A stretch of 64,000 bases of DNA from Citrus sinensis (taxonomy: Eukaryota; Streptophyta; Magnoliopsida; Sapindales; Rutaceae). This document shows, in pieces, positions 27,348-40,971 of this stretch (position 1 is its first letter; the number at the start of each line of letters is the position of its first letter). The stretch is from NCBI RefSeq assembly GCF_022201045.2, contig NC_068564.1, forward strand, positions 26,441,001 through 26,505,000, written 5' to 3'. Under the pieces are notes generated by a model that had not been told where the DNA came from, made no database searches, and saw only the letters and a program-made list of their open reading frames with translations. The translations under genes were made by a program, and so were the position numbers.

Positions 27348-27352
27348 GAATT

Positions 27353-28498
27353 TGGTAGTGTCATTGAGTGCACCAAATATTAAACCTTACTATTAGTATA
27401 AATAATTAGTATAAAACAAGTAAGGATCGATCCCACAGAGACTATGCTAGCTATATTTATTATCAACTCTAAAGCAAGACTTAAAATAAAATAATAATAG
27501 AAATAATTAATATAAATTAATCTAACTAAAGAAAATGCCAATTATAAATAAAATGAGAGTTTTTGAATTTTTAACTAAATAGCAAGAAATAAAGAAATTA
27601 AACTATGAAAACAAAAATTTAATAAAAACTCTAATTAAAGGAGAAAGAAATAATAATGATAAAAACTTTTGTTAAAAGATCATTCGCCACCATCAAACAT
27701 GCACATAATATATCAATTCTATCATCAATTTATATTGAAACTATCAACCGTAGATAACAATAACCTCAGTTAGTCTCAATCTTTCTTTAGAGTGTCGTTA
27801 GGCAAAACAAGCTCTTCACCTAATCTCTAACCATTAAATAATTTAAAACAAGCTCTTTAAATTTAAGATAACAGAAGCATTAAACAAAGAAAGATATTAT
27901 GTTGATCTATGCAATAAACACACAAACTCATATTATTTAACCTAGGTTATGTTCTCCAATTGAAATCATTGATTCCAACCTGCTACTAATGATTAAAATA
28001 TCAAGCCAATTACGGATCAAAAATTTTAATCTAGCAATAGAATTTATTCAAGTCCTATCTAATTGGCTACTCAAACAAGACGAGAATAAAATCATAAACA
28101 TTAATTATAGAAGAACATAAACAATCTCAATTAAATAAATTGAATGATAGAAATTAAAAATTAATCATATGACATGTTTGGGGTTTTGAATTCACTCTCA
28201 ACCAAATAGAAAATATAGCCTAACATAATTAAATTGGGAATAAGAAAATTGATCAAACCAATCATGAAGATTAATTCAAACAGCTGCCTTTTTCTTCAAT
28301 TCCCTTCGGCTGCACATGTAATTTTTTTTCTTGTCCTTTGCGGTAGCAAATTGTTTTGTATGTGTAGCTGCCGAATATCCCTTTTGTGTTGCTTCTGTTT
28401 GATCCTTTTATAATGCTTCAATTGCGGCTTTTAAATCCTTGCATGGAAAGAATTAAATCCAAAGCCAAAACCGCCCATGCCATAACGTGCTTGCCATT
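27353..28498 (-). repeat. 3' LTR of outer gypsy element, truncated
   Basis: Aligns with 39226-40384 with a few percent divergence by eye, then breaks off at CTTGCCATT. The missing part is the LTR's U3 start (equivalent to 40385-40971). Confidence 0.9.
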
Positions 28499-28499
28499 A

Positions 28500-30258
28500 T
28501 ACCCATTGGTGTGTAATGATATTGCTTTATCTAAGATCGCCATAGCTTCCTCTACCTCATCATCTAACTTTATCAAATTTTTCTGTTCCTTAGAATCATC
28601 TTTTGTAAGATATTTACGTATGGCAATTTCAAAACTATCATTACCGGATAAATCAAAGAAATCCTACACTAAAGTATTAATATCATCTATGGCAAAGACA
28701 GAATGTACATCACTAAGATACCTCATTGCCTCAAAGATATTGAAGTGGATCACTTCACCATCGAATTTCATTGTGAGGGTTTCATCATAAATATCAATCT
28801 TGGTTCAGACTGTCTTAAGGAATGGTCGCCCCAATAGAATAAGAGTGGGATTGGGCGATGACTCATCCTCCATTTCAAGGATATAAAAATCAGCTGGAAA
28901 GACCAATTCATTAACCTGTACAAGAACATCTTCCACAATCCCTTTGGGGTAAGCATTAGATCTATCAGCCAATTGAATAATTATACAAGTTTATTCTATT
29001 GGACTTAAATTCAAGGAATTATAAATCGAATGTGGCATAACATTAATTGAGGCCCCTAAATCTAGCATATATCTTTCGAATCTAGTATTGCCAATAGTGT
29101 AGGGGATAGTAAAAGTACATGGATCTTTGCACTTAGAAGGAAGTTTTCTTTGAAGTACAGCATAAACATTCTCTCCTACACTTACCTTTTCATTACCACT
29201 AAACTTTCGCTTGTTGCTACATAATTCCTTCAAAAATTTTGCATAACGCGGCACTTGTTTAACAGCATCAAGTAGAGAAATATTTACCTATATTTTACGA
29301 ATGGTCTCAAGGATCTCTTTTTCTTACTCCTTTTTCTTGGATTGTTTAAACATACTAGGAAATAATAGAGGAATGGAAAGGGTCTTAATTCGAGGTGAGG
29401 GGGTACTTACCCGGCTAGATGGGTCGACTGGTAATGTAGAGTGGGAATCGTCTTTCCTTGCTAAAGGAAAAGACTCGGGGGAGGGATTAGTCACAGAGTG
29501 CGATGATGTTGTGGACACTTTTGATGGCTTAGCTAATAATGGTTCCAACTGCTTTCCGCTTCTAAGAGACATAGCACTAGCATTCTCCTTTGAATTAATT
29601 TTTAGTTGAAAATGTATCTTTCTTGAAGTTCTAGCCTCTATCCTACTCATAAATATGGCCAGTTGGCTAATTTGATTATCTCAATGTTAGAGTTGTGTCT
29701 AAGTATTCTGTTGGAACTGCATAGAGTTAGTAGCGAGAGCTTTTACAAGATCTTCCAAAGACGTACCTTGATTTTGAGAAGGTGGAGGTTGCCGAACTTG
29801 GTAAGGTTGTTGCATCCGTTGTTGGGGGTAGCCTAATGGTCGAGACGGTGCCATATTAGAAATGCCTTATTGTTGGTTCTCATACCTAAAATTAGGGTGA
29901 TCCTTCCACCCGTCATTGTAAAAATTAGAATAGGGCTCCTACCTTTGTCTTGGTTGGCCTAGGAACCCCTCAACTGCATTAGCTTGCTTATGTGAACCCT
30001 CTTAGAGAGTAGAGAACATATCAGTCGTATGCTCGACCATGAAACAGACGCCACATGGTCTCACTTGTTGCCCTAGGGCTAATTGTTCCACCAAAGAGGT
30101 AAGATTTGAAACTTGTTATTCGAGGAAAGTAGTACTTACCTCATTGACTCTCTTAGGTGGTGGTAGTAGATCGTTCCTAGTGTTGAATTGTTGGGAATTA
30201 ACAGTCATATTAGCAATGAGATTTCGGGCTGCTTCTGGTGTCTTATCCACGAGTGCTC
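28500..30258 (-). pseudogene. gypsy gag C-terminal part and aspartic protease (outer element)
   Basis: Resumes gag after the nested insertion (LVDKTPEAARNLIANM), with several in-frame stops. Then follow a Gln/Pro-rich stretch, a Ser/Pro-rich stretch and the protease segment at 29254-28991. The active site reads MLDLGASINVMP; the D-L-G-A form is the usual one in Athila/Tat proteases. The frame after it decays and runs into the deletion junction at about 28498, so no RT follows. Confidence 0.8.
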
Positions 30259-31645
30259 TGTTGTGCAAATTTTAATGTACTCGCAAGCGCACGAATCTAT
30301 TGTAGTATAGACTAATGGTGACGAGTGTCGATCCCACGAGGAGGTGGATTTTAATTATATATAGAATTAATTTTGTAAATAGGTAGTTGGATTTATGGGG
30401 GAAATGATTTGGAATAAGCTAATACTTAAATTAAAATGGCGAGAATAAATTCTAAAATTGGAATTGCAATGGAGAGAATAAATTGAAGAGAAAATCTATT
30501 AAATTGACGTACTTGGGTATCTGGATCCGTATCAACATGCATCATGGGCTAAATAATCCGTATTAATGCCAATTAAATCATTAGGGGGGAATCCACACCT
30601 CATGAACCACGCTCTAATCAATATGGTGCTAAGGGCTTATCGTGCCAAATAATAATAACCTTATACTAGAAAGCCGGTGTAACCAAGGCGGTATCTAGAC
30701 AAGATCAGTATTATTTGTCGACGAGAAGTCAAAACATCCACAAAAATTAGAGGGGAAGAGAAAATAAATTTACCAAATAAAGCCCATGACACATGTTGAG
30801 ACTTCACCTTCAACCCAAGCTTGAAAGAAAATTAGCCACTCATAATTGAACTAGGGGCAAAATGGGAATTTATTAAAATACGAAGAAAATACAAGATGGA
30901 GAAGGAATTACAAAAAATGGATCCCAAAAATGGATTCAGAGATATCAAATTAGGGGGGGGAGGCCCCCTTTTTATAGATACATGGAGTAAATCATGGCCA
31001 TCGGATTAAAAACAGTTTGGACGCTCAGGATTGCGCCACGTCATCAGTCAACAGTCCACGGTTTGACCACGCGGATGAACAGTAACACGGTTTGACCCGA
31101 CTTTGAACAGTAACGCGGTTTGACCCGGATGAACAGTAACGCGGTTTGGTTGAAAATAATCCTGTGTGATGCATGCACCGTACGCGAGATTTTTCGTCCA
31201 CTGATATGCTGCCACGTCACCATCAACAGTACATAAGAATTTTAGTCCAACAGGATCGTGACACCTCATCAGTCAATGCCACATCATCGGTCAATGCCAC
31301 GTCATCATCCGTTTATGTGAACAGTGTCGTGAACAGTAACGTATACAGTACCGTACACGTGAATAGTACCGTACATGTGAATAGTGCCATTTTTCCTTTT
31401 ATGCTCCTCCTAAGGTTTTCGACCGTCCTGAGTTCAAAAGTGATGTCCGTTTTGCCGTCTGATCTCTCCTTTATTGTGAAATGACTATAATGCCCCTAAA
31501 ATACATAAAATACTTAATTAAAATAAAACACATGTAATTAAATCACAAGAAGGTTAAATATATAAAAGTAAGGGTTGTTAGTAAGACTTAAAATGTAAAA
31601 TGACGGTTTTCTCCTTTATAAATATGCATTTTCTAACACTCAACA
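30259..31645 (-). repeat. 3' LTR of inner gypsy element
   Basis: 1,387 bp. In element orientation it starts TGTTGAGTGTTAGAAAATGC immediately after a G-rich polypurine tract (GGTTGGGGGGTG). Near 31040-31145 and 31310-31390 it holds short repeats of the words GAACAGTAAC, GCGGTTTGACC and GTGAATAGTACC. Confidence 0.92.
30969..31304 (-). promoter_or_regulatory. LTR promoter: TATA box with clustered GCCACGTCA sites
   Basis: TATAAAAA on the minus strand (30976-30969) is preceded by three copies of GCCACGTCA on the plus strand (TGACGTGGC in element orientation) at 31035-31043, 31211-31219 and 31296-31304, all within about 330 bp upstream. TTGACC (W-box core) recurs between them. TGACGTGG is a known bZIP-binding word. 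The 5' LTR carries the same arrangement (for example 37798-37806), so it could drive the downstream ORFs. Confidence 0.55.
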
Positions 31646-33574
31646 CACCCCCCAACCAGCTTATTGCTAGTCCCTAGCAAATAAAGCGAAAACAAAATTC
31701 AAATTCAAAATAATTTTTTTTTTGTTTTAATAGAAACACTCGTATTTATTCCATCAGATTAATGATAGCAATCAAATAAAAGTATAAGCATTATCTCCAG
31801 TCTAAAGCAACATCACACCCACATCAACCATCCACATGAATTAGCCCAGTAGACTTTGTTTTAGCTACTCTCAAGAATGACATGTCAAACCCCAAAATCT
31901 CACTGGAAGTAGTGACACTCTCACAAATAAATTAATCCCAATAAAAATAGTCACTCCAATGAATGGTAATTGAGAGAGAAAATAATAAAGAAGTGATATC
32001 ACATGCTCTCACCAAGATGAAATAAATATGCCCTCAGCTTAGAAATAATACGATCTCAAGTCAAATAAAATGTTAGTCAACCCACTTTATTTATCTTTTT
32101 TTTTTTTAATTATGCATCACTACATCTTTTTAGCCCATATAACTAGCTTCTACTTCAAACTATAGTTCCCTAAAATCAAGAAGGACTTTTATTAGGACGT
32201 AACGTAGGCTAGGGACATGGCTAACAAAGAAGGAAAATAAGGAAAACAAAGTGTATGTTTGAGAAAAATGCAGAGAATTTTTTTTTTTTTTTTTTTTGGA
32301 AGTTGCAAGGTGGATTTCACCTATTATTTTTATTTTTTTTTCTTTTGAAACAACAACTTTTGTTTTGTTTGTTTTTTTTTTTTTTTTTTGCATAACTTTA
32401 CTGAACAACATAATTATTTACATTTTCTCAAACATATATAGGTGATGGAACTTATAAGACATTGGGTAATACTCCAAATCGGAGTGGGTCAAGATGATAA
32501 GTTGACAAAGAAAAAAGTTTTTATTTTTTATTTTTTTATTTTTTTTTTAAGGCTCAAAAGGGTTAACTATGGATATTTGATAAAAGGGATGGCTAGAAAG
32601 GCTCAAACGGATCAAAGATGGCCTTTCCATCGTCTTTTAGGGCTCTAAATAATCTTCCATATCTACTAGTTAGATGGGCCTCCAAATGTAGCAACACACT
32701 CTTTTTCTTTTTTTTTTTATTTTACAATTTTTTTTTTTAGGGTTAACTCAAAAGTAATTTAGAGATCGTGTATAAAATAATAAACTGCTAAGCTGTATAA
32801 AGAGTGGGCAAAAGGGTTATTCTCCAAGAAAAATAATAGGCTCAAAAACTCACTTGGTACTTATTATGACATGTTCATTCCTTCAAGCAACTCACATTTG
32901 TCTCCGACATCAACATGTAAAGTAGCAAACATAGCGTAACATCACTTAAGACCAAAGATAATACAAATACTAAAATTTAAATTAATCATGTCACCCAATG
33001 TTAAAACAAATCAAATTTTTTTTTTTTTAAAAAAAAAAAATTCTACCCCCCAACCTATTCTAAACATAAAAAAAAAAAAAAAATATGCATGCAGAAATGT
33101 GAAAATGATGTAGAAAAATTAATTTAGAAAAGTTACATTTAAAATGATAGAAAAGAAAATGATTTTTTTATTATTTTTTTTAAAGAAGATGCGTTTCTAG
33201 AGGAACTACACTCCATATTCAGCCATCTTCGACTCAAAAGTTGGGAAATGTATATTTATAGAGGAGAAATTAAAAAGAAGAAAAATAAACATAAACACAT
33301 AATAAAGAAAAAGAAAATGTCTGAATTTTTTTTTTTTTTTACGATAAAGATGCGTTTCTAGAGTCACTACACTCCATATTCAGCCATCTTCAACACAAAA
33401 AGTTAGCAACAGTTAGTTTCTACAACAAAAAATTAGTAAAAACTTAACCAAAATTTCATAATTGTCGACTATTCCCTCCCCCCAACCAGAAGGAAACATT
33501 GTCCTCAATGTTTGAAATGAAAGAAGTAGAGTTTAGAAGACATCACCTGGGTGGTGCAACACAGAAGAAAATAT
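31646..33574 (-). other. Noncoding 3' region of inner gypsy element with many homopolymer tracts and polypurine tract
   Basis: No supported ORF. About ten A or T runs of 10-18 bases occur (for example 32279-32297, 32373-32389, 33060-33080). A 53 bp segment beginning AAGATGCGTTTCTAGAG is present twice, at about 33186 and 33346. Near 33478-33512 the minus strand has CATTGAGGACAATG followed by a GGGGGGAGG purine run, a pattern familiar from Athila/Tat 3' regions. The polypurine tract adjoins the 3' LTR at 31646-31660. Confidence 0.65.
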
Positions 33575-34243
33575 TTACAGGCGGAGAGTTAAATCTAATT
33601 TGTACTTCTTACTGCGGCTACTGTTACCATCATTATTTGGACGCTCCAACACAAAGGTCCAGGGGTCTGGCTCCGGTCGATAAGCTTGTAACATATCAAG
33701 TAGCTCATTAGCAGTGTGAGCACAAATAAAAAGTTTTTTTACATTAGAAGGAATGAAATAGTTTTTTATTGCATGGTTAAGAAATACGATAAAGCCATCA
33801 TAAAAGTTATTGACATTTAACAAACCGATGGGTTTTTGGTGGATGTGCAGATGGGCCTAAGATGCTAGTGTGATAAGTGCCTCTAGTGTTGCAAGATCTC
33901 CTGGAAGGAAAATAAAAGCATCAGCATGATTAAGCATTTCAGTTATTCTTTCTTGCATACCTGAGACGACTAACTCTTCTCCAGTTGATGAGTCAGACGA
34001 ACTGCCCAAAGGTTTTAGGGCTCTTGGGATGATGCCTAACACTTGACTTCCTCTGATAAAAGCTGCTTCTGAGACCATTTTTGATAACCCTCGGTTACCT
34101 CCTCCATACACCAAGTGTAATTTTCTTGCTGCTATGCTTCGACCAAGATCTATAGCTGCCTCAACGAACTCTTTATGTTTGCCATAGGTAAATCCAGAAA
34201 GTACACAAATGTTCTTGAATTGTCTATTGGGAGCAGCTGCCAT
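33575..34243 (-). pseudogene. LONELY GUY (LOG)-like ORF captured in gypsy element, one in-frame stop
   Basis: LOG enzymes release active cytokinin bases from their riboside 5'-monophosphates. From Met 34243 the frame is 222 codons, the usual LOG length, with TAG at 33859-33857 (codon 129), where relatives have Trp. Family features: NICVLSGFTYGKHKEF near the N-terminus, LVYGGGNRGLSKMVSEAA (45-61), GVIP-like ILGIIPRAL, MQERITEMLNHADAF with Arg 99, and GLLNVNNFYDGF after the stop. The signature PGGxGTxxE is replaced by PGDLATLEA (114-122), losing a Gly pair and the catalytic Glu. There are no introns, although plant LOG genes normally have several, so capture was via RNA or from a processed copy. 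The frame is also open 46 codons upstream of Met 34243. Confidence 0.75.
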
Positions 34244-34556
34244 TGTGATACTTCTCGAAAATAATTTGTGAGTGCTTGACAAAAAGGAAATCACATTTAA
34301 GAATCTCGGTGATAGTGGGTCATGGTTGTGTATGAGGTAATATGTCAGTGTCAAATAACGCGTAAAGCATGTGGCTCGCAAGTCAAAAAGAAAACAGTAA
34401 AAAGAAAAAAAGCAAACAGTAATAAAATTATTAAAGACAATAATGCAAACAATAAGACAATAGTGAAATAATAAAGTAAAAGGATATTTACAGGTAGTTG
34501 CGACTGTGGCTCACATCTTCCTCTGGTTTTACGTCCAGAAACAGCTTGAACGCCCT

Positions 34557-35114
34557 CTATGGGTCGAGGATAGGCTTCCTATCCAGTTTTCTTATAAACT
34601 GGCAAACAGGGTCGTTTATAGTCAGATTCCCGAGACTATATCGTGCATGCTCTTTCTGGAATAATGGCCATAACTGGAGAATCGCTCCTTGCACATATCC
34701 ACTGGGATGCGTTTCAAGAGACAAAAGGATATCATCCAATGACTCCTTATTCAAGCCATCCCTAATGAATTGAATCTTATCTTCCCTGTTATCAGACATC
34801 ATTCCTAAAGAACATGGGTTTTTATTGCAACTCATTCTGGCACACTTATGACAAGCAACAGAAATTCTTCGAGCTCGTCGTTTTCTTGCATAATTTCCTT
34901 TACCACAACCAGGCATGTATGCAATAAATTTTGGAGGTAACTCACCTGCCGATCGTACTTTAGCCTCGATTAACCAACGGATGTCAGCAGGTATGTTATT
35001 CCTCATGAGTAATCGCATGCGTTCGGACCGAGCTTTATAGATCGTAAGGAGGGCATTCTGAGGAAGTGAAGGGAATCGCTTGTGAAGCTTTGCTAGAATC
35101 TCGTTTCTGTCCAT
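34557..35114 (-). CDS. Post-pol ORF B, Arg-rich/Cys-cluster protein resembling plant-virus small nucleic-acid-binding proteins
   Basis: 185 codons, 141 bases downstream of ORF A. The N-terminal part (FPSLP near residue 14; IPADIRWLIEAKVRSAGELPPKF) leads into GKGNYARKRRARR, then a CX2CX4CX4C cluster (CHKC, C, C). A basic YARKRRA-type stretch followed directly by a Cys cluster is the hallmark I know from the small Cys-rich nucleic-acid-binding proteins of carlaviruses and relatives, some of which suppress RNA silencing; there the Cys spacing is usually wider. The C-terminal 75 residues match nothing I recognise. The frame is uninterrupted, suggesting recent selection or recent capture. Function is inference. 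Confidence 0.5.
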   Translation of the reverse strand: MDRNEILAKLHKRFPSLPQNALLTIYKARSERMRLLMRNNIPADIRWLIEAKVRSAGELPPKFIAYMPGCGKGNYARKRRARRISVACHKCARMSCNKNPCSLGMMSDNREDKIQFIRDGLNKESLDDILLSLETHPSGYVQGAILQLWPLFQKEHARYSLGNLTINDPVCQFIRKLDRKPILDP

Positions 35115-35255
35115 ACTTTCGCCTCAGAATATCAGTTATTATGGGAAACTGAAGTAACCGACTTGATTGTCACGGAGTACCGTTATCCGCCACTTCACCG
35201 GGGTAACAAACTAAAGCACATAAACAGAAAAACAAATTAAAACACACAAAGAAAA

Positions 35256-35531
35256 TTAAAATCGTCCTCTTATTGAATTTACCTCAAGCTCCAACTGGAT
35301 GTCGTAAACACTTCTCTCAATGTCTCTGAGTTGGCTTTCTAAACCCTCAACATAGGCTACTAATTCTGGTGGTTGTAGAGCCCAAATGCGTTGTGTTTTA
35401 CAAAATTGAATCTGCCTTTTGAGATGAGTTTTGACACGTTGAAGTGGTTTAAGAATGTTCAGGAGGAACGATCTAAGTATGAGACTCATGATTAACAATG
35501 ATAAGAGAAAACTTAATGGTAAAATAAACAC
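35256..35531 (-). CDS. Post-pol ORF A, hydrophobic N-terminus plus possible coiled coil
   Basis: 91 codons, 84 bases after the integrase stop, same strand. Residues 1-27 are strongly hydrophobic (membrane or signal-like); residues about 50-85 are rich in Glu, Leu and Ile with a heptad-like pattern (VEGLESQLRDIERSVYDIQLELE). A later Met at residue 16 (MSLILRS) could be the true start. I do not recognise the family. Position after integrase is where some Athila/Tat elements carry env-like frames, but 91 residues is much too short for an envelope protein. Confidence 0.45.
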   Translation of the reverse strand: MFILPLSFLLSLLIMSLILRSFLLNILKPLQRVKTHLKRQIQFCKTQRIWALQPPELVAYVEGLESQLRDIERSVYDIQLELEVNSIRGRF

Positions 35532-35615
35532 ACTTATGCAAAAACAATTTCAATTAGCAAAAGAATAATAATAAAAAGAAAGAAAGAAAAATCAAATCAA
35601 CGAAAAGAAAAAAAA

Positions 35616-37164
35616 TCAATTCAAATTTGGTGGGTCACTCAAATTTATTTCGGTGTCTTCTTCATGTGGTTGGTACTCTAGATATGGCTTTAATCTTTGA
35701 CCATTAACTTTAAACGTGACACCATTCTTTGGGTCTTTAATTTCAATTGCCCCATGTGGAAAAACAATATGAACAATAAATGGGCCAGACCAACGTGAGC
35801 GTAACTTACCTGGGAATAGGTGCAAGCGAGAATTGAATAAAAGCACTTTCTGACCTGGAGTGAACGATTTTCTCATAATTTGCTTATCATGGAAGACTTT
35901 CATTCGTTGCTTGTAAATCTTGGCATTTTCGTACGCGTCATTGCGAATTTCTTCAAGTTCTGCCAGCTGTAATCTTCTTTCTGAGCTGGCTTGCTGCATG
36001 TCAAAATTGAATTTCTTGATGGCCCAATATGCACGATGCTCGAGTTCCACAGGTAGGTGGCAAGCTTTTCCATACACTAGCCTGTAGGGTGACATCTCAA
36101 TCGGGGTCTTGAAAGCCGTTCTATATGCCCATAATGCATCATCAAGTCTTAATGACCAATCTTTCCTGTCTGGCCTCACCGTCTTTTCTAATATGTGCTT
36201 TATTTCTCGATTGGAGATCTCAACTTGGCCACTGGTTTGCGGATGATACGGGGTCGCCACTTTGTGTGTGATTGAATACTTTGTCAAAAGAACTTTGAAT
36301 GCTTTGTTACAAAAGTGGGCACCACCATCACTGATTATTGCTCGAGGGAATCCAAAGCGCGAGACAATGTTGCTTTTCAAAAATCCTATCACCACCTTGT
36401 GATCATTGGTCCTACATGGAATTGCTTCTACCCATTTTGAGACGTAGTCAACACCAACCAATATGTATTGATGGCCAAAAGAAGGGGGAAAGGGTCCCAT
36501 GATGTCGATACCCCATACGTCAAAAATCTCAACCACTAAAATTTGATTTAGTGGCATCATGTTCCTTCGTGTAATGCTTCCCATTCGTTGACACCTATCA
36601 CATGAAGAACAGAAAGTGTAAGCGTCTCGAAATATAGATGGCCAATAGAAACCACATTGTAAAACTTTAGTCGCTGTCTTCTTAGCACTGAAATGGCCTC
36701 CACAAGCTTGTTCATGGCAGAATGAAAGGATATTCTGAATTTCACTTTCTGGGACACATCGTCTAAGAATTTGATCCGCACAATACTTGAACAAATACGG
36801 GTCATCGCAAAAGAAATTCTTTATTTCCGCAAAGAATTTGATCTTGTCTTGCTTGGTCCAATGCTCTGGAAGTTTACCTGTAACAAGATAATTAACTATA
36901 TCAGCATACCAAGGTAATACTTCCACACTCATTAATTGTTCATCTGGAAATGACTCATTTAATGGTAATTGTTCTATAATTGTGTCAAAATGGAGACGAG
37001 AGAGGTGGTCCGCCACAACATTTTCTGTCCCTTTTTTATCTTTGAATTCCAAGTCAAATTCCTGCAAAAGTAACACCCAACGAATTAGTCTGGCTTTTGC
37101 ATCTTTCTTTGTGAGAAGATATTTAAGAGCAGCATGATCTGTGAATATAATTATTTTACAACCA
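35616..37164 (-). CDS. gypsy RNase H (C-terminal end) and integrase, open frame
   Basis: The frame is open from the deletion junction at about 37164 to the stop at 35616. It begins in RNase H ([23 protein letters not shown]). Integrase follows: an HHCC zinc-binding region ending in [12 protein letters not shown], first catalytic Asp in WGIDIMGPF, second in IISDGGAHF, catalytic Glu in [13 protein letters not shown], then the GPY-like region. No chromodomain is seen, as expected for Athila/Tat. DDE residues are all present. Only the RNase H start, RT, protease and gag are missing, so the element would depend on a helper. Confidence 0.9.
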
Positions 37165-37167
37165 ATG

Positions 37168-38408
37168 AGATTTGGAATAAGCTAATACTTAAATTAAAAT
37201 GGCGAGAATAAATTCTAAAATTGGAATTGCAATGGAGAGAATAAATTGAAGAGAAAATCTATTAAATTGACGTACTTGGGTATCTGGATCCGTATCAACA
37301 TGCATCATGGGCTAAATAATCCGTATTAATGCCAATTAAATCATGAGGGGGGAATCCACACCTCATGAACCACGCTCTAATCAATATGGTGCTAAGGGCT
37401 TATCGTGCCAAATAATAATAACTTTATACTAGAAAGCCGGTGTAACCAAGGCGGTATCTAGACAAGATCAGTATTATTTGTCGACGAGAAGTCAAAACAT
37501 CCACAAAAATTAGAGGGGAAGAGAAAATAAATTTACCAAATAAAGCCCATGACACATGTTGAGACTTCACCTTTAACCCAAGCTTGAAAGAAAATTAGCC
37601 ACTCATAATTGAACTAGGGGCAAAATGGGAATTTATTAAAATACGAAGAAAATACAAGATGGAGAAGGAATTATAGAAAATGGATCCCAAAAATGGATTC
37701 AGAGATATCAAATTAGGGGGGGGAGGCCCCCTTTTTATAGATACATGGAGTAAATCATGGCCATCGGATTAAAAACAGTTTGGACGCTCAGGATTGCGCC
37801 ACGTCATCAGTCAACAGTCCACGGTTTGACCACGCGGATGAACAGTAACACGGTTTGACCCGACTTTGAACAGTAACGCGGTTTGACCCGGATGAACAGT
37901 AACGCGGTTTGGTTGAAAATAATCCTGTGTGATGCATGCACCGTACGTGAGATTTTTCGTCCACTGATATGCTGCCACGTCACCATCAACAGTACATAAG
38001 AATTTTAGTCCAACAGGATCGTGACACCTCATCAGTCAATGCCACATCATCGGTCAATGCCACGTCATCATCCGTTTATGTGAACAGTGTCGTGAACAGT
38101 AACGTATACAGTACCGTACACGTGAATAGTACCGTACATGTGAATAGTGCCATTTTTCCTTTTATGCTCCTCCTAAGGTTTTCGACCGTCCTGAGTTCAA
38201 AAGTGATGTCCGTTTTGCCGTCTGATCTCTCCTTTATTGTGAAATGACTATAATGCCCCTAAAATACATAAAATACTTAATTAAAATAAAACACATGTAA
38301 TTAAATCACAAGAAGGTTAAATATATAAAAGTAAGGGTTGTTAGTAAGACTTAAAATGTAAAATGACGGTTTTCTCCTTTATAAATATGCATTTTCTAAC
38401 ACTCAACA
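37168..38408 (-). repeat. 5' LTR of inner gypsy element, internal end deleted
   Basis: Matches 30408-31645 almost base for base. The 149 bases nearest the internal region (equivalent to 30259-30407) are missing, lost with the primer site, gag, protease and RT. The TATA box (37732-37739) and upstream bZIP-type sites are intact. Confidence 0.9.
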
Positions 38409-38413
38409 TGCTC

Positions 38414-38972
38414 CTCCACTAGCGGCATCAATCATACTCTTATCCATAGGCAGTAGACCCTCATAGAAATATTGAATAAGGAGTGGATCACTTATCTGAT
38501 GGTGGGGTCAGCTGGCACATAGCTTTTTGAATCGTTCCTAGTAGTCGTAGAGCAACTCTCCATTATACTGTCGGATTTCACAAATTTCTTTTCGAATGCT
38601 GCCAGCTTTTGATGCTAGGAAATATTTCTCAAAAAATAGCCGACACATCTCATTCCATATAGCGACAGTACCGGAAGGAAGATAATACAACCATTCCTTG
38701 GCTGAATCCGCCAAAGAGAATGAGAAGGCCATTAACTTCACTTGCTCTTCAGAAACTTCGGCTGGTTTCGTTGTGGAGCATACCACATGGAACTCTTTTA
38801 AGTGCTTATTTGGGTCCTCTCCTGCAAGACCATGAAAAGTAGGAAGAAGGTGAATCATCCCAAATTTGAGTTCAAAGTTTACCTAAGGGTTTGGATTCTC
38901 AATGCATAAGGGTTGCTAGTCCAAGTTAGGAGCTGCCAACTTTTTAAGTGTTCGGTTGTTGTTCTGAGCCAT
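38414..38972 (-). pseudogene. gypsy gag, N-terminal part (outer element)
   Basis: A Met at 38972 opens MAQNNNRTLKKLAAPN, followed by two in-frame stops before the well-conserved retrotransposon gag domain (FHGLAGEDPNKHLKEF; AKEWLYYLP; FFEKYF) at 38858-38538. The frame continues to the insertion point at 38413, where the nested element interrupts the sequence GGA/LVDKTPEAA. Confidence 0.8.
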
Positions 38973-39202
38973 TAGTTCAGGTTCTGGGTTGCCTGGCTCT
39001 GTCTTCGGGAGTGGAATGTGGATGGCAAAATCAGGTTCTGAATATAATAGGTTGCTCTAAGTTGTTCGAGTTTCAATCGAATGTCCTCTATGCTCATGAA
39101 AATCTAAATATAGAACATAAAATAACTAATTAAAATAAAATAAACAAATAACAATAAAAATTATTAAAAAAACGAGTGATAATAAACAAACTAGAAGTTA
39201 AT

Positions 39203-39219
39203 CCCCGGCAACGGCGCCA
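39203..39219 (-). other. Primer binding site, tRNA-Asp type
   Basis: TGGCGCCGTTGCCGGGG on the minus strand, the complement of the plant tRNA-Asp(GUC) 3' end. This primer is characteristic of Athila/Tat gypsy elements. Confidence 0.88.
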
Positions 39220-39225
39220 AAACTT

Positions 39226-40971
39226 TGGTAGTGTCGTTGAGTGCACCAAATTTAAAATCTTACTACTACTATAAATAATTAGTATAGAACGAGTAAGGAT
39301 CGATCCCACAGAGACTATGCTAGCTATATTTATTATCAACTCTAAAGCAAGACTTAAAATAAAATAATAATAGAAATAATTAATATAAATTAATCTAACT
39401 AAAGAAAATGCCAATTATAAATAAAAGGAGAGTTTTTGAATTTTTAACTAAATAGCAAGAAATAAAGAAATTAAACTATGAAAACAAAAATTTAATAAAA
39501 ACTCTAATTAAAGGAGAAAGAAATAATAATGATAAAAACTTTTGTTAAAAGATCATTTGCCACCATCAAACATGCACATAATATATCAATTCTATCATCA
39601 ATTTATATTGAAACTATTAACCGTAGATAACAACAACCTCAGTTAGTCTCAATATTTCTTTAGTGTGTCGTTAGGCAAAACAAGCTCTTCACCTAATCTC
39701 TAACCATTAAATAATTTAAAACAAGCTCTTTAAATTTAAGATAACAGAAGCATTAAATAAAGAAAGATATTAGGTTGATCTAGGCAATAAACACACAAGC
39801 TCGGATTATTTAACCTAGGTTATGTTCTCCAATCGAAATCATTGATTCAAATTATTGATTCCAATCTGCTACTAATGATTAAAATATCAAGACAATTACG
39901 GATCAAGAATTTTAATCTAGCAATAGAATTTATTCAAGTCCTATCTAATTGGCTACTCAAACAAGACGAGAATAAAATCATAAACATTAATTATAGAAGA
40001 ACATAAACAATCTCAATTAAATAAATTGAATGATAGAAATTAAAAATTAATCATATGACATGTTTGGAGTTTTGAATTCACCATCAACTAAATAGAAAAT
40101 CTAGCCTAACAAAATTAAATTGGGAATAAGAGAATTGATCAAACCAATCATGGAGATTAATTCAAACTGCTGCCTTTTTCTTCAATTCCCTTCGACTGCA
40201 CATATAATTTTTTTTCTTGTCCTTTGCGGCTGCAAATTGTTTTGTATGTGTGGCTGCCGAATATCCCTTTTGTATTGCTTCCGCTTGATCCTTTTATAAT
40301 GCTGCAATTGCTGCTTTTAAATTCTTGCATTGAAAGAATTAAATCCAAAACCAAAACTGCCCATGCCATAACGTGCTTGCCATTTAAAGCCATGCAAAAT
40401 ATTTGCTTTCTTTAATTTCCATGCACATGCCATTTCAATTCTTTATTTCCAATGCTTTGTCTACCAATTTTTTAGGCAATTCACGTGCATGAGATATGGC
40501 CATTTCCTTTTTTGTTCAATTTGCTTCCCATATTAACCATTGAGCAAGCCAACGCCACCTTAATGCTTGCACATGTAATTACCCTTTAAGATTCTTGATT
40601 CCAATTAAATGAAGCCACCAAATTGAATTAAATTCAATTCCCTCTTTAATCTCCACGTGATGGTCATACTCTTCTGAATATGCATGAATTAATTTTGTTG
40701 GCTTCGATTTTCTTGGTTTCCAAAAATCTCTAATTATTTCTCTTTTCTAATTCCTTCAAGTAGATTTCTTCTTAAATATTCCGATTTAAATTTCTCTTTA
40801 ATCTCATAGTATACCTAAAATAACAAAATAAAAAAACTAAGATAAAAATTAACACATAAAATATAATTTACTAAATTAAAAATTAACTAAAATAACTAGA
40901 ATAGTTAAGATCAAAACAAGGAAAAAATAGAGAAATTAATAACAAAATATATGAAAAATATGCACTTATCA
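39226..40971 (-). repeat. 5' LTR of outer gypsy element, full length
   Basis: 1,746 bp. In element orientation it begins TGATAAGTGCATATTTTTC and ends GACACTACCA, six bases before the primer site. It contains no gene; the open frames near 40157-40415 have truncated counterparts in the other LTR and are chance. Confidence 0.9.

Follow-up and report, generated by a model that had tools for sequence, protein, structure and literature searches.

The locus

We study here a stretch of 64,000 nucleotides of Citrus sinensis DNA (contig NC_068564.1, positions 26,441,001 to 26,505,000 of the forward strand), called the window in what follows; coordinates are counted from its first letter. On its minus strand lies a Ty3/gypsy retrotransposon that carries, before its 3' long terminal repeat (LTR), an open reading frame (ORF) related to the plant LONELY GUY (LOG) enzymes, which activate cytokinins. 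We call this frame and its relatives, transposon-borne or presumably so, retro-LOGs. In citrus, the family has replaced the LOG active-site motif, is under purifying selection, and ends in a tail that may bind the co-repressor TOPLESS. The features are listed below, with the evidence for each.

30259..38408, minus strand: the Ty3/gypsy element, a deletion derivative (LTR pair, ends, target duplication)
37169..38408, minus strand: 5' LTR, its inner end truncated by a deletion (self-BLAST, 99.5% over 1240 bp; junction into RNaseH coding sequence)
35616..37076, minus strand: ORF of the RNaseH end and integrase (Pfam rve 4.1e-14, Integrase_H2C2 4.9e-13)
34557..35114, minus strand: second extra ORF, 185 amino acids, similar to nucleic-acid-binding proteins of plant viruses and hence called NABP-like (family-level Carla_C4 and Viral_NABP matches)
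33575..34243, minus strand: LOG-like frame, 222 codons with one TAG (reading frame, Pfam, solved relatives)
33878..33904, minus strand: altered active-site motif PGDLATLEA (frame translation, family alignment)
33578..33610, minus strand: codons of KKYKLDLTLRL, the tail with basic cluster and LxLxL (frame translation, tail counts)
30259..31645, minus strand: 3' LTR (self-BLAST, element ends)

The LOG-like frame runs from an ATG at 34243 to its end at 33575, and its sole internal stop is the TAG at codon 129 (33857-33859). A first-pass annotation, made from the letters of the window, had placed a LOG relative at 33575-34381, and rightly so; it lies on the minus strand, the plus strand holding 22 stops. 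Both halves of the frame match Pfam Lysine_decarbox (E-values of 7.7e-11 and 3.2e-9), the predicted model has the LOG fold, and the best solved relatives are At2g37210 (2a33, 1.2e-25) and At5g11950 (1ydh). These are AtLOG3 and AtLOG8 in the naming of PMC4979012. The Pfam matches, the solved relatives and the LTR pair agree with the earlier view that the gene is cargo of a gypsy element, downstream of the RNaseH/integrase ORF and upstream of the 3' LTR. Two further details of that view can be read in the frame: PGDLATLEA stands in place of the signature PGGxGTxxE, with the conserved arginine (Arg99) kept, and the TAG is the only nonsense lesion. Since this TAG precedes the tail codons, the tail is not an expected product of the window copy.

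The element itself is young and internally deleted. Its LTRs are 99.5% identical over 1240 bp, which at 1.3e-8 substitutions per site per year corresponds to an age of about 0.2 million years. Its termini are TG...CA, and its flanks (30254-30258 and 38409-38413) carry the same 5 bp, GAGCA, a perfect target duplication. The deletion starts inside the 5' LTR and ends in RNaseH, so that gag, protease and most of the reverse transcriptase (RT) are missing. This loss, the NABP-like ORF and the LxLxL tail were absent from the first-pass annotation.

Copies and selection

The codon pattern of GDLATLEA has 938 exact matches in the genome (484 + 454), and that of KLDLTLRL followed by a stop has 955 (466 + 489); the reversed controls have 0. 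When the best 150 of 2360 first-look candidates were scored as LOG copies, all proved at least 95% identical over the 174-residue part used as query, and 149 were free of stops there. A second sample of 60 copies (L013-L072) was drawn from the best 150 of 1883 candidates chosen by the neighbouring NABP-like ORF. LOG is present in 59 of these 60, and 57 of its frames are ungapped and of full length; the LOG counts thus omit three copies (one without a match, two in pieces), and the integrase counts omit four.

Stop-free sister copies are common (52 of the 57 frames), and the window TAG is not a variant shared among them. The mean pN/pS, the ratio of nonsynonymous to synonymous polymorphism, is 0.198 over the 57 copies of LOG and 0.098 over 56 copies of integrase, which bears out the earlier suggestion that the family actively carries the gene. 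The variants can also be sorted by the number of copies in which they occur, knowing that the neutral ratio of nonsynonymous to synonymous changes (N/S) is 2.6-3.3 and that 7 to 9 nonsense changes are expected under neutrality for every 43 synonymous ones. Variants seen once comprise 53 nonsynonymous, 43 synonymous and 8 nonsense changes; those in two or three copies, 8, 8 and 0; and those in at least four copies, 12, 26 and 0, with an N/S of 0.46. Nonsense singletons thus occur about as often as neutrality predicts, amino-acid changes are strongly depleted among shared variants, and singletons are intermediate, with an N/S of 1.23. Such a pattern marks a gene that is required while the element propagates and that decays once inserted.

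One rival reading is that the captured gene is a passenger without any role, intact only through the youth of its copies: the LTRs of the window element are nearly identical, and stops do turn up, in 5 of the 57 frames. We consider this very improbable, given the N/S and the lack of nonsense changes among variants in at least four copies, and a ratio of nonsynonymous to synonymous divergence (dN/dS) of 0.224, at a dS of 0.70, between the LOGs of two citrus subfamilies. The second of these subfamilies (L077, C9:10999694-11009594) has its own NABP-like ORF and a LOG 74% identical to the window type; it sits just upstream of another element copy.

The first-pass annotation had hesitated between a dead copy kept for another role and decay after capture. 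Decay of a single captured copy is rejected, because sister copies carry both the motif change and intact frames; retention for another role fits better with these copies and with the selection they display. The outcomes that it had named as fatal, a single copy in the genome, or a neutral dN/dS together with stops in every copy, were both looked for, and neither was found.

The active site

Residues are numbered here after CgLOG (PMC4979012). Three protein searches yielded 748, 261 and 927 matches; the best 120 of each are listed, and all counts of relatives are counts of listed proteins. Among the 120 citrus-type relatives, Gly116 is replaced by Asp in 115, Gly118 by Ala, Thr or Val in 117, Lys100 by Ile in 106 and His97 by Gln in 104. 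Where there is a letter at the position, Glu122 is retained in 0 of 118, His97 in 0 of 108 and Lys100 in 1 of 108, while Arg99 is kept in 99 of 108. Thr119 and Glu121 are each kept in 115 of 120. The motif change is therefore not damage to one copy: PGDLATLEA is the state of the citrus family.

In CgLOG, Gly116, Gly118, Lys100 and His97 line the AMP or prenyl sites, and alanine at the tested AMP and catalytic residues, S19A excepted, nearly abolished activity (PMC4979012). These results, set against the changed residues, predict that the citrus retro-LOG is enzymatically inactive; judged by its defining motif, the protein is a LOG homologue and not a LOG enzyme.

The relatives outside citrus, those of Populus and Malvaceae among them, differ in having the catalytic motif. 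The second list of LOG relatives, found with an old relic as query, includes proteins of Populus, Reevesia, Diplodiscus and Xanthoceras among others; all 120 of its proteins have Gly116, Thr119 and Glu122, and 112 have Arg99. Such conservation is what one would expect if the protein were still an active, nucleotide-directed enzyme of shifted specificity, by which the element would raise cytokinin or another base in the host cell. We regard this as improbable: the same proteins keep Lys100 in only 4 of 120 and His97 in 17 of 120, and citrus has lost Glu122, a residue at which alanine nearly abolished CgLOG activity (PMC4979012).

Slightly less improbable, though still a minor candidate, is a protein that senses or traps a ligand, binding a nucleotide or cytokinin nucleotide without cleaving it. 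Most of the 120 listed proteins have retained Arg99 (99), Thr119 (115) and Glu121 (115), and the bacterial structure 5zbk, titled as an AMP complex, has Ala at the second Glu of the TLEE found in 5zbj, so that Ala at this site is compatible with AMP binding. The alteration of Gly116, Gly118, Lys100 and His97 in nearly all listed citrus-type relatives speaks against such a role.

Relatives and phylogeny

The best protein match of the window LOG, at 97%, comes from Citrus x changshan-huyou. The Citrus sinensis genome also holds two relics that retain GGLGTLEE, at C5:21026442 and C1:8962762; judged by eye, both have NABP-like remains upstream of LOG, and the C5 relic has integrase remains as well. 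An alignment of 53 of the 240 listed LOG relatives, besides P0002, was made. A maximum-likelihood tree of 32 rows groups the retro-LOGs in a single clade of 26 rows (support 100/98), or of 27 rows with a Xanthoceras relative, P0358 (96/89). AtLOG3, AtLOG8 and one citrus host LOG stand apart (99/97). We infer a single capture, after which the pocket would have changed first, catalysis being lost later in citrus.

A scan for host LOGs with the codon pattern of PGGYGTxEE gave one match; such matches are sparse probably because introns split the motif. In public records, retro-LOG copies (proteins P0002, P0247 and P0257) are named cytokinin riboside 5'-monophosphate phosphoribohydrolase, among them a 705-member citrus cluster and, in Populus, a LOGL10. 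This naming is a probable misannotation, and the numbers of LOG genes given for citrus and poplar may be skewed by it.

The C-terminal tail

Citrus retro-LOGs end in KKYKLDLTLRL, and those of the Populus type in KKLRLDLSLSL or KKLRLDLSLRL. Proteins shorter than 205 residues were left aside (34 of 120 and 40 of 120 in the two LOG lists). Of the 86 and 80 full-length proteins that remain, 69 and 71 have LxLxL in their final 14 residues, against a frequency of 0.019 in shuffled proteins, and 75 and 74 have a basic cluster ahead of the tail. All 57 copies of the citrus sample have LxLxL, when codons are counted regardless of an upstream stop. Two citrus host LOGs with interrupted coding stretches (L081, L084) end without it. 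In the predicted model, residues 196-222 have pLDDT values below 50, as would be expected of a free linear motif.

The tail (LDLTLRL in citrus, LDLSLSL in Populus) resembles DLELRL of SUPERMAN, a motif cited as both required and sufficient for repression (PMC6479872); the available passages of PMC8069471 hold nothing on SUPERMAN. HaRxL21, an effector of downy mildew, uses an LMLTL at its C-terminus to bind TOPLESS (PMC7446885). Going by the motif, it is plausible that the retro-LOG tail binds TOPLESS too.

One other role for the tail was considered and set aside. It does not follow the rule for a peroxisomal targeting signal (PTS1): the third-last residue is Leu, and the second-last is often not basic (LSL, LCL, LNL).

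The tail would be incidental if the dead retro-LOG entered mixed dimers with host LOG and so reduced cytokinin activation, a dominant interference that the first-pass annotation had also proposed. The LOG fold is indeed kept and constrained, and the CgLOG pocket takes Glu125 and Trp129 from the neighbouring subunit (PMC4979012). We give this explanation a small chance: the host LOGs compared lie far from the retro-LOG clade, with 44-47% identity between the listed citrus-type copies and AtLOG3, and interference leaves unexplained why relatives that have the catalytic motif carry the same tail.

The neighbouring ORF and the full element

Taken alone, the NABP-like ORF of the window falls below the Pfam cut-offs (Carla_C4, E-value of 0.0086; Viral_NABP, 0.05). 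Of the 120 listed relatives, which include named proteins of Citrus, Xanthoceras, Acer and Populus, 29 were aligned with the window ORF, and in this family of 30 Carla_C4 matches 27 members at E <= 0.01 (best 2.7e-7) and Viral_NABP 26 (best 2.9e-8). The window ORF has a basic stretch followed by four cysteines, spaced C-x2-C-x4-C-x4-C. The Potato virus H carlavirus protein is spaced C-x2-C-x9-C-x4-C, and such a protein suppressed local silencing (PMC3689765). The predicted fold of the ORF is poor (pLDDT 56.5), and a fold search with that model gave no viral match at E <= 0.001; among solved structures, the best relative has an E-value of only 0.55.

A search of viral contigs for the NABP-like pattern gave 37 stretches and no relative; genome contigs gave 74 stretches and one relative. 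The latter (L085, DAIEQH010000041.1), in a Candidatus Nomurabacteria bin, has a plant-type RNaseH-integrase-NABP order and is probably plant contamination. No LOG occurs in its next kilobase, so the NABP-like ORF also exists without LOG. Outside citrus, two NABP/LOG protein pairs have longest contigs of matching length (8723 bp for both P0138 and P0295, 4511 bp for P0170 and P0261), which suggests linkage there without proving it.

Between the two citrus subfamilies, the dN/dS of the NABP-like ORF is 0.242. Its pN/pS among copies, 0.171, is biased, since the copies were chosen by this very ORF. The DNA differences between copies L013-L072 drop to 0.67% in the ORF, from 1.9-4.0% on both flanks, a dip that would follow from the same choice, given recombination between elements.

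The full layout is seen in a sister copy (L075/L076): an LTR of about 1.59 kb, a primer-binding site (PBS), TGGCGCCGTTGCCGGGG, which we take to be Athila-like, an 1830-amino-acid frame, the NABP-like frame, LOG, and the 3' LTR. The 1830-amino-acid single frame, absent from the deleted window copy, has the order gag-protease-RT-RNaseH-integrase and contains no Pfam match to a chromodomain at E <= 0.001.

The window element is inserted within an older one, whose LTRs (27351-28498 and 39224-40384) are 94.8% identical; the outer element (27351-40384) has, adjoining its LTR, the same PBS-like sequence as the LOG-bearing element. Between integrase and the NABP-like ORF lies a short frame of 91 amino acids (35256-35531, minus strand), open in 47 of the 54 copies where it was located. 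Elsewhere in the genome, same-orientation pairs of LOG copies lie about 11.1 kb apart (C1:7549937/7561081, C2:2332353/2343498, C3:30624601/30635725, C8:12850746/12861838 and C8:21127726/21138852), as if they were tandem element copies with a common LTR.

Interpretation

We have high confidence in the family membership, the selection and the motif loss. The reading that we favour, with a probability of about one half, is that this gypsy family, whose LOG motifs occur more than 900 times in the genome, carries a selected LOG-fold frame whose active-site motif has been replaced in citrus and whose tail would recruit TOPLESS. Probably on a single occasion, and before the copies of citrus, poplar and mallow diverged, an ancestral element would have acquired a LOG mRNA; it would then have gained the tail of basic cluster and EAR motif. 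The substrate pocket would have been altered, and catalysis lost in the citrus lineage, the LOG fold being retained to present the tail. Once in the nucleus, such a protein may tie up TOPLESS or divert it, and the host would then respond less strongly to the element; RNA binding or silencing suppression might come from the NABP-like protein. The window copy is a deletion derivative, with a stop ahead of its tail. Our confidence in this mechanism is moderate.

Several observations weigh against it. LxLxL is a short motif, and ten other effectors with LxLxL failed to bind TOPLESS (PMC7446885). In the two lists, it is missing from the last 14 residues of 17 out of 86 and 9 out of 80 full-length relatives, and the Xanthoceras relative P0358 terminates without it. 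The changes within the tail in the 57 copies (2 nonsynonymous, 3 synonymous, 1 nonsense) are too few to show selection on the tail alone. The fold is constrained too, and may do more than display the tail. Singletons, like shared variants, are below the neutral N/S, and old or decayed copies are under-sampled because copies were drawn from the best-matching 150.

A bolder proposal, which we hold to be doubtful, is that a woody-rosid LTR lineage carries a virus-style cassette of two counter-defence genes: a flexivirus-type silencing suppressor that binds RNA, and a LOG pseudoenzyme that would hijack TOPLESS by means of a SUPERMAN-like EAR motif at its C-terminus.

Comparison with known systems

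A LOG cargo as such is known: a YgdH/LOG domain has been published in gypsy consensuses of Citrus sinensis, C. clementina and Populus trichocarpa (PMC9289625, which cites an earlier report, Steinbauerova et al. 2011). These citrus elements, with a LOG-family domain within gypsy elements as here, are almost certainly of the same family as the window element. In its available passages, that article reports the domain alone, with no mention of a lost active site, selection, an EAR-like tail or an NABP-like ORF, and the terms 'NABP' and 'EAR' do not occur there. Conserved catalytic loss under selection, an EAR tail or an NABP ORF in LOG-bearing elements was not found in searches of the open-licence PMC literature, and the available passages of PMC7264820 and PMC11593424 hold nothing on citrus or retrotransposon LOGs. 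Any novelty would thus lie in the selected pseudoenzyme, its EAR-like tail and its virus-type neighbour: a published type of cargo gene proves to be a family of pseudoenzymes under selection, with a tail that plausibly binds a co-repressor.

The extra ORFs of plant gypsy elements are mostly without known domains (PMC9289625). Here such ORFs gain a testable function, with two selected genes downstream of integrase, one from a family that matches viral nucleic-acid-binding profiles and one a pseudoenzyme with a motif likely to bind a co-repressor. The closest parallel is a Phalaenopsis gypsy element with an ORF for an AlkB-type RNA demethylase, likewise an extra host-like enzyme that has persisted through several rounds of replication; the demethylase has activity in vitro, whereas the citrus retro-LOG is predicted to be inactive (PMC9289625). 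With the plant LOGs AtLOG3 (2a33) and AtLOG8 (1ydh), retro-LOG has in common the fold and most of its length, and differs from them by its changed motif and pocket, its lack of introns and its LxLxL tail. The NABP-like family resembles the cysteine-rich, nucleic-acid-binding proteins of carlaviruses in its profile matches (27/30 and 26/30) and in its basic stretch followed by four cysteines; contrary to those proteins, it has another cysteine spacing, a length of 185 amino acids in the window, and a place downstream of integrase.

With SUPERMAN, other EAR repressors and effectors (PMC6479872, PMC7446885, PMC8126959), retro-LOG shares a leucine repeat, C-terminal as in HaRxL21. Unlike these proteins, it has a LOG fold and is encoded by a transposon, and its binding to TOPLESS is predicted from the motif. 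If that prediction is true, transposons would have to be added to the bacteria, oomycetes and fungi that make use of the TOPLESS hub.
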